From the NCBI RefSeq assembly GCF_013141915.1, contig NZ_SROX01000001.1, forward strand, positions 1,054,001-1,118,000: DNA of 64,000 bases. The letters are read 5' to 3'. This DNA is from Cupriavidus necator (GTDB lineage: Bacteria; Pseudomonadota; Gammaproteobacteria; Burkholderiales; Burkholderiaceae). The notes under the pieces were generated by a model. It worked only from the letters and a program-made list of their open reading frames with translations. It was not told where the DNA came from and did no database searches. The translations under genes and the position numbers were made by a program. Of this stretch, positions 21,740-24,872 are shown piece after piece (position 1 is the stretch's first letter; the number at the start of each line of letters is the position of its first letter).

Positions 21740-22191
21740 GGCGCTCGCTTCCTGTGCGGGTGAATGATCACCGCTATCGTAGCCGCATTCGCGTTCTCCG
21801 CATCGGTTCGTTCAGTGATCCCCCGCCTTCCGGCACCTAGCGCCACGCGTCCCGCTGGCCGCAGCCGGCATTGGCAAACCCATACACGCGTGCGATAACG
21901 CCGCCCACACCGGCGCGATGCCCTGCCACTCGCGCGGCGCCGGCCGATCAGCCACAACGCCAGCACCGCGGTGATGAGGGGCTGAACTATTCGCTACCGT
22001 CGCTTCGACCGCGAAGATTCTCCGGGGTCCGAAGACATGTCGCCGCACCAAGCAGCCACCGCTGCGTCAACTCGCAGAATCGGCCGTCTCGCCAGACCCG
22101 CTGGCGCCGCTAACCTGCAGCACATCCACAGCAACGAGAACCATTCTCATCTCAGCGCTGCACCTCGCGACTTGTCTCCAGACGCCCCAGC
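21740..22191. other. Divergent intergenic region upstream of the C39/beta-barrel cluster
   Basis: About 450 bases without a supported gene. Near the 3' end the palindrome GAGAA-CCA-TTCTC lies at 22136-22148, 44 bases before the C39 peptidase start, where an operator could act. It only loosely resembles a Fur box. Nothing else stands out. Confidence 0.45.
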
Positions 22192-22800
22192 ATGAAGCGC
22201 CGGCTTATTTCTATCCTCGCACTGACACTTGCCCAGGTCGCACAGGCCAACGTGGCAGGCACGCCTGCCATGCGTTCATGGAAGGCGATGCGCGATGACG
22301 GCGTGGTCAAGCAGCAGTTCGACTATTCCTGCGGTGCCGCCGCGCTGGCCACTCTGCTGCAGCACTACTACGGCGACGCCGTTGACGAAGCTGCCATCCT
22401 GAAGCAGATCTCAGCCTGGGGCCCCGCAACGCTCAGCAGCCTGTCGGCCGCCGCCAGTCACTTCGGCTACGAAGCGCGCGGCTACGCGCTGTCGCTGGAG
22501 GCGCTGCGGCAACTCAGGCTGCCGGTCATCGTCTTTCTCCATACGGGCAACGACAACCACTTCTCCGTCCTGCGCAGCGTCGATGCGGACTCAGTGGCGC
22601 TGGCCGACCCATCGCTGGGCAACCGCATTTATGCCATCCCCGATTTCCTACAGCTGTGGACGACCCGTCCCAGCCGGCACTACCCCGGCCGCGTGCTGGT
22701 GGTCCTACCGCGCCGAGCGGGCCAGGCCGGCAATCCGGATTTCATGCGACCGATTCCCGCCAGGTTTGGCGGACTAACACTAAGACCCTTCCAGCCATGA
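22192..22800 (+). CDS. Exported C39-family cysteine peptidase (FapD-like)
   Basis: The 202-residue protein has a signal peptide (MKRRLISILALTLAQVAQA) and a single C39 peptidase domain. The catalytic cysteine is C47 in FDYSCGAAAL, with H123 in NDNHFSVLR and D139 in ALADPSLGN completing the triad. C39 peptidases usually form the N-terminal domain of ABC exporters and cut after double-glycine leaders. A free-standing, Sec-exported form like this one is typical of FapD in functional-amyloid operons and of related small systems. The next gene overlaps its stop as ATGA, so the two are translationally coupled. The likely substrate is the small protein at 23729. Confidence 0.85.
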   Translation: MKRRLISILALTLAQVAQANVAGTPAMRSWKAMRDDGVVKQQFDYSCGAAALATLLQHYYGDAVDEAAILKQISAWGPATLSSLSAAASHFGYEARGYALSLEALRQLRLPVIVFLHTGNDNHFSVLRSVDADSVALADPSLGNRIYAIPDFLQLWTTRPSRHYPGRVLVVLPRRAGQAGNPDFMRPIPARFGGLTLRPFQP

Positions 22801-23702
22801 TCCGCCGCCTGACCCGGATGGTCGCCGCCACTGCCGCCCTTGCCCCGTGTCCGGCGTCGGCACAAATCGTGCCAACACTGGAGGAATTGCTGACCGCACA
22901 GAATCGTTGGCGCGCCGACGCCGGTCTCTCCTACTTCAACCACAAAGCGACTGGCACGGCCGCGCGCGGCCCGATCTATATCCAGGTGGGCCAGAACGTC
23001 ATCCCGGTGGCAACCGGCGTAGTGCCGAAGACCCGCAATGTGGATTCGCTAGTGGCATATGCCGGCCTGCGCTACGGGCACTCGGCCAACACGGAGCTGT
23101 CGTTCTCAGGCACCGGGTCATATACCAACGAACGGACCTTACTGGAAGGCTTCAATCATCAGTCCAGCAACAGCACCAACTTCTCCAGCCTGTCGCTTGC
23201 CATCAGCCATCGCTTCCTGAAGGAGAGAGGCAGCCCCGGACTGGTGGCCTACCTGGAAACCGGCGCGGTGGAGCATAGTCACGATGCCACTTCGTACTTC
23301 AGCAGCTTCACTGCCGGCGGCACGCTCTATCGCACCATCGACCCGGTGGTGCTCAGCCTGAACGCTTCATATCGCCTGAACCTGCCGCGCCATGACAAGG
23401 CCGGCAGGCCAGGCAACGTGCTGATGCTGACGCCGCAGGTCGGCTTTGCCGCAAACGAGACCGTCACCCTCTACGGCGGCATCAACTGGCAATTGCAGCA
23501 AGCCGAGGACAGCTCGCGAAGCCTGCCGTCACAACGCAATACACAAACCGCACTGGTCTTCGGCCTGGGCTACCGAGCCAGCGACCGCACCACCATATCG
23601 CTCAGCGCCAACGCCAATATCAGCGGCTACGGCGGTGCACAGGTAACGCTCGGCACAGTGGTGAAGCTGGGCGCGATGCCCGAAAGGGAACGTCTGCAGT
23701 AA
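22797..23702 (+). CDS. Outer-membrane beta-barrel protein (FapF-like transporter candidate)
   Basis: The 301-residue product has a signal peptide ending near APCPASA (residue 22), a short helix (VPTLEELLTAQNRWRADAG) and then about a dozen amphipathic strands with alternating aromatic and polar residues (AGLRYGHSANTELSFSGTGS; VLMLTPQVGFAANETVTLYG), typical of an outer-membrane barrel of about 12 strands. It belongs with the transporter/phenol-degradation-MetA-like barrels. Coupling to a C39 peptidase gene recalls FapF, the trimeric channel that exports Fap fibre subunits, but this protein is shorter and lacks a long N-terminal coiled coil. It overlaps the previous gene by four bases. Confidence 0.75.
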   Translation: MIRRLTRMVAATAALAPCPASAQIVPTLEELLTAQNRWRADAGLSYFNHKATGTAARGPIYIQVGQNVIPVATGVVPKTRNVDSLVAYAGLRYGHSANTELSFSGTGSYTNERTLLEGFNHQSSNSTNFSSLSLAISHRFLKERGSPGLVAYLETGAVEHSHDATSYFSSFTAGGTLYRTIDPVVLSLNASYRLNLPRHDKAGRPGNVLMLTPQVGFAANETVTLYGGINWQLQQAEDSSRSLPSQRNTQTALVFGLGYRASDRTTISLSANANISGYGGAQVTLGTVVKLGAMPERERLQ

Positions 23703-23728
23703 CACTTTGATTTCAAGGAGAGGAATCG

Positions 23729-24160
23729 ATGCGAGTCATACCTGGAGTTTCGGTCGCCGTTGCGCTAGCTAGCCTGTGCTGCGCTGCGTGGGCCTCTACG
23801 CCCGTGACGTTCAGCGATATCGAGCAAATGGATAACACCGCGGGAATGCATATCAGCCAGTTGTCGGTGACCGAAATGGAATCGGTTGAGGGCTCGGTTG
23901 CGCCGGTGGTCATTGCCGGCGTTGCGGCAGTGAGCGGCGCGATTGCCAATGGCGCCACCTATTGGGTGAACACCCCCAACCCAACCGCAGGAGGCCTCGT
24001 CTGGACCGCCGGCACCGGCTTCACCGCGGGTGTCGTCGGAAGCATTGCGGCCACGATGCCGCCAGTAGGAGCCATGCTCGCCACCGGCGCCGCGACCTTT
24101 ATCCCCATGCTTCCCGAGCCGACGCGGACAAAATGCGGGGCCGCCGGCCTGGCTTGCTGA
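23729..24160 (+). CDS. Small exported Gly/Ala-rich protein with a double-glycine-like motif (candidate cargo)
   Basis: The 143-residue product has a Sec signal peptide (MRVIPGVSVAVALASLCCAA, cut near residue 23). At 45-56 comes LSVTEMESVEGS, which fits the bacteriocin leader pattern LSxxE(L/M)xx(V/I)xG(G/S/A), and then a small-residue, GxxxG-like hydrophobic stretch (APVVIAGVAAVSGAIANG and ending GAMLATGAATFIPML). It ends in two cysteines, C136 and C143. A strong AAGGAGAGG precedes the ATG. Following a C39 peptidase and an outer-membrane barrel, it is the obvious candidate to be processed after G55-S56 and exported. No family recognised. Confidence 0.75.
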   Translation: MRVIPGVSVAVALASLCCAAWASTPVTFSDIEQMDNTAGMHISQLSVTEMESVEGSVAPVVIAGVAAVSGAIANGATYWVNTPNPTAGGLVWTAGTGFTAGVVGSIAATMPPVGAMLATGAATFIPMLPEPTRTKCGAAGLAC

Positions 24161-24218
24161 AGGGTTAGACCACCACAAGGCCGGTGGCACCTGGCGCCGG
24201 CCAATCACAGGGGCGGCG

Positions 24219-24542
24219 ATGGAATATGGCATCACTGACTACGAGAAGCTCAAGGCAGTCTATTCCTGCTTTGTCTTCTTCTACTTTGTCCCGAGACTCC
24301 TGGTGTTTCCGTTCGTCTATGGCGAGCGTTATCTCTGGACGCTCATCTCACTGTGCGCGGTATTTGCCGCCAACTATTTTGTTCTCAGGGGCTTCTTCGC
24401 GGGCGACGGGGTGCCAACGCTCTACGAGGCGTGCTACGGCCCCGTCATGAGTGTCTGGTTTGCACTGCTGTGCTGCAAGGTCGAGAGGGACTATCCGGGC
24501 TACTACAACAACGAGGTTCGCCGCAGATGGCAGGGACGCTGA
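24219..24542 (+). CDS. Small membrane protein of the C39/beta-barrel cluster
   Basis: An unrecognised 107-residue protein with three likely membrane segments: about 16-34 (FVFFYFVPRLLVFPFVYG), 38-56 (LWTLISLCAVFAANYFVL) and 74-90 (SVWFALLCC). The C-terminus is charged (KVERDYPGYYNNEVRRRW). The ATG at 24219 has only a weak upstream GGGGCGGCG. It overlaps the next gene as TGATG. Its position after the candidate cargo would suit an immunity or accessory role; this is inference only. Confidence 0.6.
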   Translation: MEYGITDYEKLKAVYSCFVFFYFVPRLLVFPFVYGERYLWTLISLCAVFAANYFVLRGFFAGDGVPTLYEACYGPVMSVWFALLCCKVERDYPGYYNNEVRRRWQGR

Positions 24543-24829
24543 TGCTTTCCGATTTCCAAATCAATGCCTGCGGCATTGCCATGCTTTGCTACATAGCCAT
24601 CGTGCTCGGCATCCTGGCGCCGAAGTACTTGCTGGCACCATCGATCCTTCGGCGCCGGTACGGCCGGGCGGCCGGGGCAGTCGCCGGCCTCTTGCTGCTA
24701 AACCTTTGCATCTTCACCCTCCTGATGCCAGCCAGGCCGCGGGTGCCGTTCTACGAGGCCTTCGCAGGCGTGTTCCTGAGCCTGTGCCTGTCGTTTCTGC
24801 TATGCCAGCGGGCCGGGGAGCAAAGCTGA
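24542..24829 (+). CDS. Small membrane protein of the C39/beta-barrel cluster
   Basis: An unrecognised 95-residue protein (MLSDFQINACGIAMLCYIAI) with three likely membrane segments, near 9-28, 44-62 and 71-89. The start overlaps the stop of the previous gene by one base (TGATG), indicating coupled translation. No motif points to a function. It is the last gene of the cluster; a hairpin follows before the convergent gdhA. Confidence 0.6.
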   Translation: MLSDFQINACGIAMLCYIAIVLGILAPKYLLAPSILRRRYGRAAGAVAGLLLLNLCIFTLLMPARPRVPFYEAFAGVFLSLCLSFLLCQRAGEQS

Positions 24830-24872
24830 CCGATCCTGACGCCATCCGTCGCTTGCGCCGCAGGTATATGTC

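Follow-up and report, generated by a model that had tools for sequence, protein, structure and literature searches.

What would a bacterium make and release with an exported C39 peptidase and a FapF-like outer-membrane barrel when no recognizable Fap fibre protein is encoded beside them? The question is raised by five genes in a 64,000-nucleotide stretch, here called the window, of a 6.97 Mb Cupriavidus necator genome (assembly GCF_013141915.1, contig NZ_SROX01000001.1; G000:C11:1054001-1118000 in our genome set). A first-pass annotation, made from the letters alone, had described a minimal FapD/FapF-type route for a small cargo, which could be a surface fibre, an adhesin or a bacteriocin-like peptide. 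The locus is a real, conserved, self-contained and horizontally inserted cassette. It probably makes a bacteriocin-like peptide that would be exported by Sec, trimmed in the periplasm by the C39 peptidase and released through the FapF-type barrel. The closest relatives are the nap island of Neisseria gonorrhoeae and hemocin-type clusters rather than Fap operons, and the cassette is a new example of this recently described kind of locus, the Nap/hemocin-type peptide islands, with a function predicted from sequence. The earlier annotation had missed the tandem Sec signal and double-glycine-type leader of the cargo, the cassette character of the locus and the empty site. The features are as follows (a slash in a leader marks the predicted cut).

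21791..24872 (approximate limits), no strand: inserted cassette, placed by alignment to seven empty sites in the genus and by G+C content at third codon positions (GC3)
22192..22800, plus strand: stand-alone, Sec-exported C39 peptidase, FapD/NapP-like, 202 amino acids (Pfam, alignments, C39 tree)
22797..23702, plus strand: FapF-type 12-stranded outer-membrane barrel lacking the FapF coiled-coil domain, 301 amino acids (profile, model, Foldseek)
23729..24160, plus strand: cargo precursor, 143 amino acids, with a Sec signal (about residues 1-22, by eye), a pro-region with leader, and a mature part
23861..23896, plus strand: double-glycine-type leader LSVTEMESVEG/S, predicted C39 recognition site (leader scan, alignment)
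23897..24157, plus strand: predicted mature peptide, 87 amino acids, isoelectric point 8.0, net charge +1, 37% Gly+Ala, two Cys (from the predicted cleavage site)
24219..24542, plus strand: small membrane protein 1, 107 amino acids, candidate immunity or accessory protein (two hydrophobic segments; homologues in G192 and G162)
24527..24829 (start may be 24542), plus strand: small membrane protein 2, candidate immunity or accessory protein (three hydrophobic segments)

The five open reading frames (ORFs) lie on one strand between 22192 and 24829, and our ORF prediction agrees with the first-pass annotation. Of the two overlapping gene pairs described there, the peptidase and barrel frames do overlap by 4 bases (ATGA). 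The 1-base overlap between the small genes exists only if the second starts at 24542, and its homologues favour the in-frame ATG at 24527.

The cargo is the key to the function. Its mature part is Gly/Ala-rich and ends in a Cys pair, and its leader carries G-S rather than G-G or G-A. A protein database search with 175 candidates scored gave nine matching proteins including the window's own, the named ones being from Cupriavidus. Common to a 10-row cargo alignment are a Sec-type N-terminus, S43, E49, M50, E54, G55, S56, the Gly/Ala-rich body and two C-terminal cysteines. None of ten cargos scanned passed a Pfam cut-off. The class IIb bacteriocin model TIGR03949 matched residues 43-76 of the window cargo with 16.5 bits (E 0.0052), under its cut-off of 21.5, and it matched 3 of 10 other cargos at 12.7-16.8 bits, also below the threshold. 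A lipoprotein was rejected, as no lipobox was seen by eye. The JUQZ-1/BLB8 bacteriocin family, listed as a Brevibacillus peptide, was likewise rejected: the cargo of locus L129 scored 13.3 bits against a cut-off of 40, and 0 of 339 genomes exceeded it.

The tandem arrangement recurs in related clusters. Twenty clusters of a C39 peptidase with a short barrel were scanned (the window, G192, G162, G002, G021, G468, G323, G398, G365 and seven of G241, these last five genomes coming from the Gammaproteobacteria scan, and four plasmids) for the pattern [LIVM][STND]xx[EDQ][LMF]..[TVSIAE]xG in an exported ORF within 1.5 kb, with 5-kb segments as controls; loci L131 and L004, L151, where a C39 has no barrel nearby, and the gonococcal L248 and L249 stand outside this count. 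A Sec signal followed by the leader was found in 19 of the 20 clusters and in 7 of the 95 controls (p = 5e-15 by Fisher's test), a result that is weakened by a pattern shaped on some of the tested clusters and by clusters several of which are related, so that not all are independent. Six of the seven control positives were proteins of FapD/FilB-type C39 loci. Among these 19 leaders, L occupies position -10 in 16, E position -6 in 18 and M position -5 in 16, the G being fixed by the pattern. The parts behind the leader span 23 to 288 amino acids and look mostly unrelated. By eye, mature parts are similar only among the three Cupriavidus orthologues, between L045 and the hemocin of L150, and between the C-termini of L134a and L135. 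In the Acinetobacter plasmid p12SAAs474 (L152) one leader is common to three cargos with different mature parts.

The peptidase that would read this leader belongs to Pfam Peptidase_C39 (81.9 bits, cut-off 22) and has its own signal peptide. Its residues C47, H123 and D139 do not vary in either of two alignments, one of 5 rows and one of 16, which bears out the exported stand-alone C39 protease proposed from the sequence. It is distinct from FapD proper, as it reached 77.8 bits with the FapD equivalog NF058616, far under the cut-off of 330. Sixteen of 142 C39 ORFs were used to build profile A4, and by their scores with it all 142 split into a set at or above 181.9 bits and a set at or below 147.1 bits. 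In a tree of 53 C39 rows (23 high-scoring and 30 others, every fourth being taken), a branch with 99/95 support parts the high-scoring, short-barrel set from the other, FapD/FilB-like set; the tree is unrooted, has no ABC-type C39 outgroup and takes its labels from the score, and the branches of its E. coli and Avibacterium rows are long. The window peptidase falls on the short-barrel side. The C39s of L226 and L228, which are FapD by NF058616 (441.7 and 416 bits), fall with the lower-scoring set on profile A4. Among 398 genomes sampled from the phylum, only the window genome and G002 reach the high-scoring set.

The second ORF is homologous to FapF by sequence and by fold. No Pfam family matched it above its cut-off, but a profile of 32 homologues searched against PDB sequences found FapF only (best E 1.1e-6 at a limit of 10; four distinct sequences). 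An AlphaFold2 model shows 12 long strands at medium confidence (predicted local distance difference test, pLDDT, 75.4; predicted TM score, pTM, 0.70). With this model, Foldseek placed a FapF chain at each of ranks 1-18 (E from 1.6e-11 to 2.4e-8; TM 0.60-0.67, by query), and the COG4313 channel 4rl8 came next. The earlier call of an outer-membrane beta-barrel is thereby upheld, with a FapF-like fold, and the FapD/FapF-like pair holds at the family level, with a minimal route. The FapF N-terminal periplasmic coiled-coil is not seen in the model, in which a helix covers residues 28-31 and the first strand begins at 38, residues 13-30 having low confidence. This bears on the idea that the C39 cuts or gates the barrel and that the cargo leader is an export tag only. 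Cutting of FapF by FapD has been discussed as an option (PMC5557850, in the part available), but the window barrel has nearly no periplasmic N-terminal domain to cut, and 19 of the 20 clusters have the leader in proteins that otherwise mostly differ; we consider this idea very unlikely.

The peptidase and the barrel also keep company elsewhere. Profile scans for both were made over 369 Gammaproteobacteria, and among the matches listed per genome 24 of 26 barrel places have a C39 match no more than 3.5 kb away; the count used 50 of the 63 listed C39 places, the other 13 being irrelevant to the two exceptions. Weaker barrel-profile matches were portions of longer proteins in FapD/FilB-like loci. 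All five genes occur in the same order in the window, G192 and G162, all of the genus Cupriavidus by their named homologues. Neither of the two objections to the first-pass reading that could be computed, missing synteny and a barrel fold unrelated to FapF-like channels, thus came true. Taken with the 24 of 26 barrel places near a C39, this order indicates clustering beyond chance.

Is the cluster then a reduced Fap operon making a fibre? Like Fap, it has a FapF-homologous barrel and an exported C39, and homologous FapD-FapF pairs are described beyond Fap in further phyla (PMC6173800, from the part available). The cargo would in that case form an amyloid or adhesive surface coat, helped by the two small membrane proteins, and the Gly-zipper-like spacing in the mature part of the window cargo would fit. 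Unlike Fap, the window has no match to FapA, FapB, FapC or FapE and no coiled-coil, and the 99/95 branch sets its C39 apart from the FapD/FilB-like ones. The absence of FapB/FapC repeats and of a FapA chaperone, seen from the start, was confirmed at the family level, and none of the five proteins matched a Fap or curli family, fibre or repeat, in Pfam or NCBIfam. Moreover, this genome carries a FapD/FilB-like locus at another place (L043), and the cargos of sister clusters mostly share the leader only. A Fap operon was rejected because the FapD cut-off is missed and fibre families are lacking, and a fibre or adhesin made by this cassette is highly improbable. Of the cargos first suggested, a bacteriocin-like peptide with immunity genes last is thus the best supported, while the surface fibre or adhesin gained no support from any Fap cargo or repeat family.

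At L043 itself (G000:C10, about 5.4-10.8 kb of the locus), the second stand-alone C39 of this genome is found, with Gly-rich exported proteins carrying LDDMRGG or LDDVRGG and a 476-amino-acid outer-membrane-type protein.

In the bacteriocin-like reading, the 143-amino-acid precursor would cross the inner membrane by Sec and lose its signal peptide. The exported periplasmic C39 would recognize LSVTEMESVEG/S and cut at or just after G55-S56, which would free a peptide of about 87 amino acids. By homology to FapF, this peptide would leave through the 12-stranded barrel, and the two small membrane proteins probably protect the producer. The target of the mature peptide is probably the membranes of related cells or, as reported for the gonococcal Naps, the population that produces it.

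The nap island is the closest characterized system. It encodes NapF, a FapF homologue, NapP, a C39 peptidase, the double-glycine peptides NapA-C, and NapI, and its authors propose periplasmic cleavage followed by export through NapF; a bacteriocin-like use of a FapD/FapF-type pair is already on record there (PMC11798529, 2025, in the part available). Like the window, it combines a FapF-type barrel, a stand-alone C39, double-glycine peptides and small immunity-like or membrane genes in a horizontally acquired island of about 3 kb. The window differs in its 87-amino-acid, Gly/Ala-rich cargo of net charge +1, in two small membrane genes after the cargo, in having no regulator gene and in placing the peptidase first. 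The inner-membrane step is left open for nap in the available text, with the holin NapH suggested, whereas the window has a Sec signal before the leader. One gonococcal record held three high-scoring C39s and two barrels. The C39 lying 2.7 kb from a barrel, presumed to be NapP, shares 42% identity with the window peptidase over 170 amino acids, and the other barrel shares 34% with the window barrel over 286 amino acids. The leader rule found no Nap peptide in L248, the presumed nap island, a record in which the barrel frame is short.

Away from this presumed island, at L249:1069-2864, a second gonococcal NapF-like barrel stands beside a 179-amino-acid cargo with LSQKEMKETEG/A.

From this kinship a self-lysis peptide could be proposed, released by the same route, acting in stationary phase on the producing population and modulated by the two small membrane proteins. 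The accessible text of PMC11798529 reports that the Nap peptides are linked to autolysis and that no antimicrobial activity was found, and the presumed NapP is the gonococcal C39 compared above. The Naps are described there as cationic helices of 16-36 amino acids, unlike the Gly/Ala-rich 87-mer of net charge +1, and relatives of the cassette occur, as bacteriocins do, on small plasmids that can be mobilized and in an operon annotated for hemocin. An autolytic role is thus rather unlikely, though a good deal less so than a fibre.

Haemocin is a bacteriocin. Plasmid p250 of Avibacterium paragallinarum (L150) is annotated with HmcD, a C39 peptidase, an ATPase, and hemocin structural and immunity proteins, and HmcD belongs to the barrel family with 83 bits on profile A3. 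The operon resembles the window in this barrel, in the adjoining stand-alone C39 and in a Sec-type precursor with LSQKEMSEVKG/G, and it has a dedicated immunity gene; it differs in an AAA ATPase, a Cys-rich mature peptide of 40 amino acids and a different immunity protein of 118 amino acids. No paper joining haemocin to FapF was found in the literature searched, which covered few subscription papers. A barrel, a cargo, a small membrane protein and a C39 are also encoded together on small mobilizable plasmids from Acinetobacter (6.3 kb) and from E. coli (5.9 kb). Of 5,426 E. coli genomes, one has a nearly identical copy of the E. coli barrel gene.

A further cluster, L045:1514-4563 (G021), has a barrel, a C39, an ATPase-like gene and a cargo ending in a Cys-rich peptide much like the p250 hemocin; by its predicted proteins it appears to be a chromosomal haemocin relative.

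Double-glycine peptides of Gram-negative bacteria are usually assigned to one-step ATP-binding cassette (ABC)/TolC export (PMC10233263, in the part available). The class II microcin type I secretion system (T1SS), formed by a peptidase-containing ABC transporter (PCAT), a membrane-fusion protein (MFP) and TolC, shares with the window a double-glycine leader for a C39 domain, and has an immunity gene. The cassette differs in that it encodes neither an ABC transporter nor a membrane-fusion protein, its C39 has its own signal peptide and its leader stands behind a Sec signal. A PCAT/T1SS microcin was rejected, as there is no transporter in the cassette and the C39 ORF of 202 amino acids is not fused to an ABC protein. 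The family suggests a second route of two steps, with the double-glycine leader behind a Sec signal and the C39 enzyme in the periplasm, and the cassette gives a simple search rule for unrecognized bacteriocin-like genes on chromosomes and small plasmids.

The two small membrane proteins are probably immunity proteins, as suggested by their last position, their hydrophobicity and the strongest divergence among the five genes. Between G192 and G162 identity is 97% for the barrel, 93% for the C39, 96% for the signal and leader side of the cargo, 82% for its mature side, 74% for small protein 1 and 64% for small protein 2, which is the least conserved of the five. Between the window and these two genomes it is 83-84% for the barrel, 74% for the C39, 52-54% for the leader side, 73% for the mature side, 54-58% for small protein 1 and 52-58% for small protein 2. 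Small protein 1 had two database matches besides itself, one named as Cupriavidus.

Several points weigh against a bacteriocin-like peptide made by this route. The leader side of the window cargo is less conserved than the mature side in the comparison just given, so that the expectation of a fixed leader and a free mature part fails here. The cargo reaches no Pfam or NCBIfam cut-off, its mature peptide is weakly cationic (+1), unlike the Naps as described, and the two small proteins match no known immunity family in these databases. Because the Nap peptides were without antimicrobial activity in the available account (PMC11798529), homology is no proof of antagonism. The residue after the conserved G varies in the family (A, E, S, R, G, K, Y, D), and the exact cut is therefore unsure. 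L130 is without a leader cargo and its barrel frame has two stops, and at L131 a C39 was found but no barrel. Finally, another region of the genome (G000:C48) encodes a C39 in a frame of 1045 amino acids, the size of an ABC transporter, and this C39 could have a part.

The cassette has the marks of an insertion. It is about 3.1 kb long, with only the five predicted genes between its limits. Thirty loci with the upstream neighbour were found, of which 20 had neither gdhA nor a C39 in reach; in the ten that could be judged, the neighbour directly adjoins gdhA in seven (the empty site) and the site is occupied in three. The five genes have GC3 values of 0.72-0.80, below the 0.894 +/- 0.026 (minimum 0.813) of 35 other genes of the window. 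Among 60 genomes of the genus, a C39 at 74-100% identity is found in three, the window counted, and G002 has a 41% relative in a similar cluster; in 150 genomes drawn from the family, the cargo is present in one, the window's own. The cassette ends show no clear repeats, only short imperfect ones. A promoter scan found 0 sites against 0.6 in shuffled sequences, and terminator-like sites numbered 4 against 1.9 +/- 1.6.

A similar leader is seen at Fap-like loci. The target of FapD has been called unknown, with FapE suspected (PMC5557850, PMC6173800, as far as their available text goes). By eye, the ORF after the C39 opened with a signal peptide and an LxxxE[LM]xxxRG-type motif in 13 of 17 FapD/Fap-like loci, seven having LKDxE[LM]; in L237 and L240 this ORF had no such motif, and in L055 and L056 the ORF picked was distant from the C39. 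The skeleton [LIVMP]-x3-[ED]-[LM]-x4-G in an exported ORF within 1.5 kb was found in 43 of 116 long-type C39 loci, many of which end 1.3-1.5 kb from the C39, against 3 of 41 controls (p = 1.3e-4). Forty of the 43 lie on the C39 strand, and some look accidental. The FapE-type leader was found in 8 of 10 loci of family f162, two of these confirmed as FapD.

In L226, L228 and L230-L235, the proteins at the FapE position begin with a Sec signal and an LxxxE[LM]-type leader ending in RG, and this RG-ending leader is a candidate FapD cleavage site. It is conceivable, although we hold it more tentatively than the function proposed for the cassette, that haemocin, the Naps, the Cupriavidus peptide and Fap use one pathway of a Sec signal, an L-x-x-x-E-[L/M]-x-x-x-x-G leader, a stand-alone periplasmic C39 and a FapF-type barrel, with FapE as the FapD substrate. 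If so, amyloid and bacteriocin systems would share one exporter. Since the same leader skeleton stands at the FapE position, the question of the FapD target comes down to a single-residue test.

Other observations concern the wider family. G241 holds seven clusters of a C39 with a short barrel (L133-L138), four of whose seven cargos share a near-identical signal and leader; these four have different long mature parts, with a C-terminal domain common to two. In the Acinetobacter plasmid p12SAAs474 (L152:1447-5543), two of the three cargos each directly precede a different small ORF, like toxin-immunity pairs. A barrel and C39 pair was also seen in L004, on a contig titled Helicobacter cetorum isolate SulCav and by that title outside the Proteobacteria; no leader cargo was seen there, the contig starting just upstream. 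In several cargos a patch recurs about 10-20 amino acids before the leader (DDLAFAFHG, DMAFAFDSG, NQVFDIEKF), and this stretch between the signal peptide and the LSxxEM leader is possibly a barrel-targeting element.

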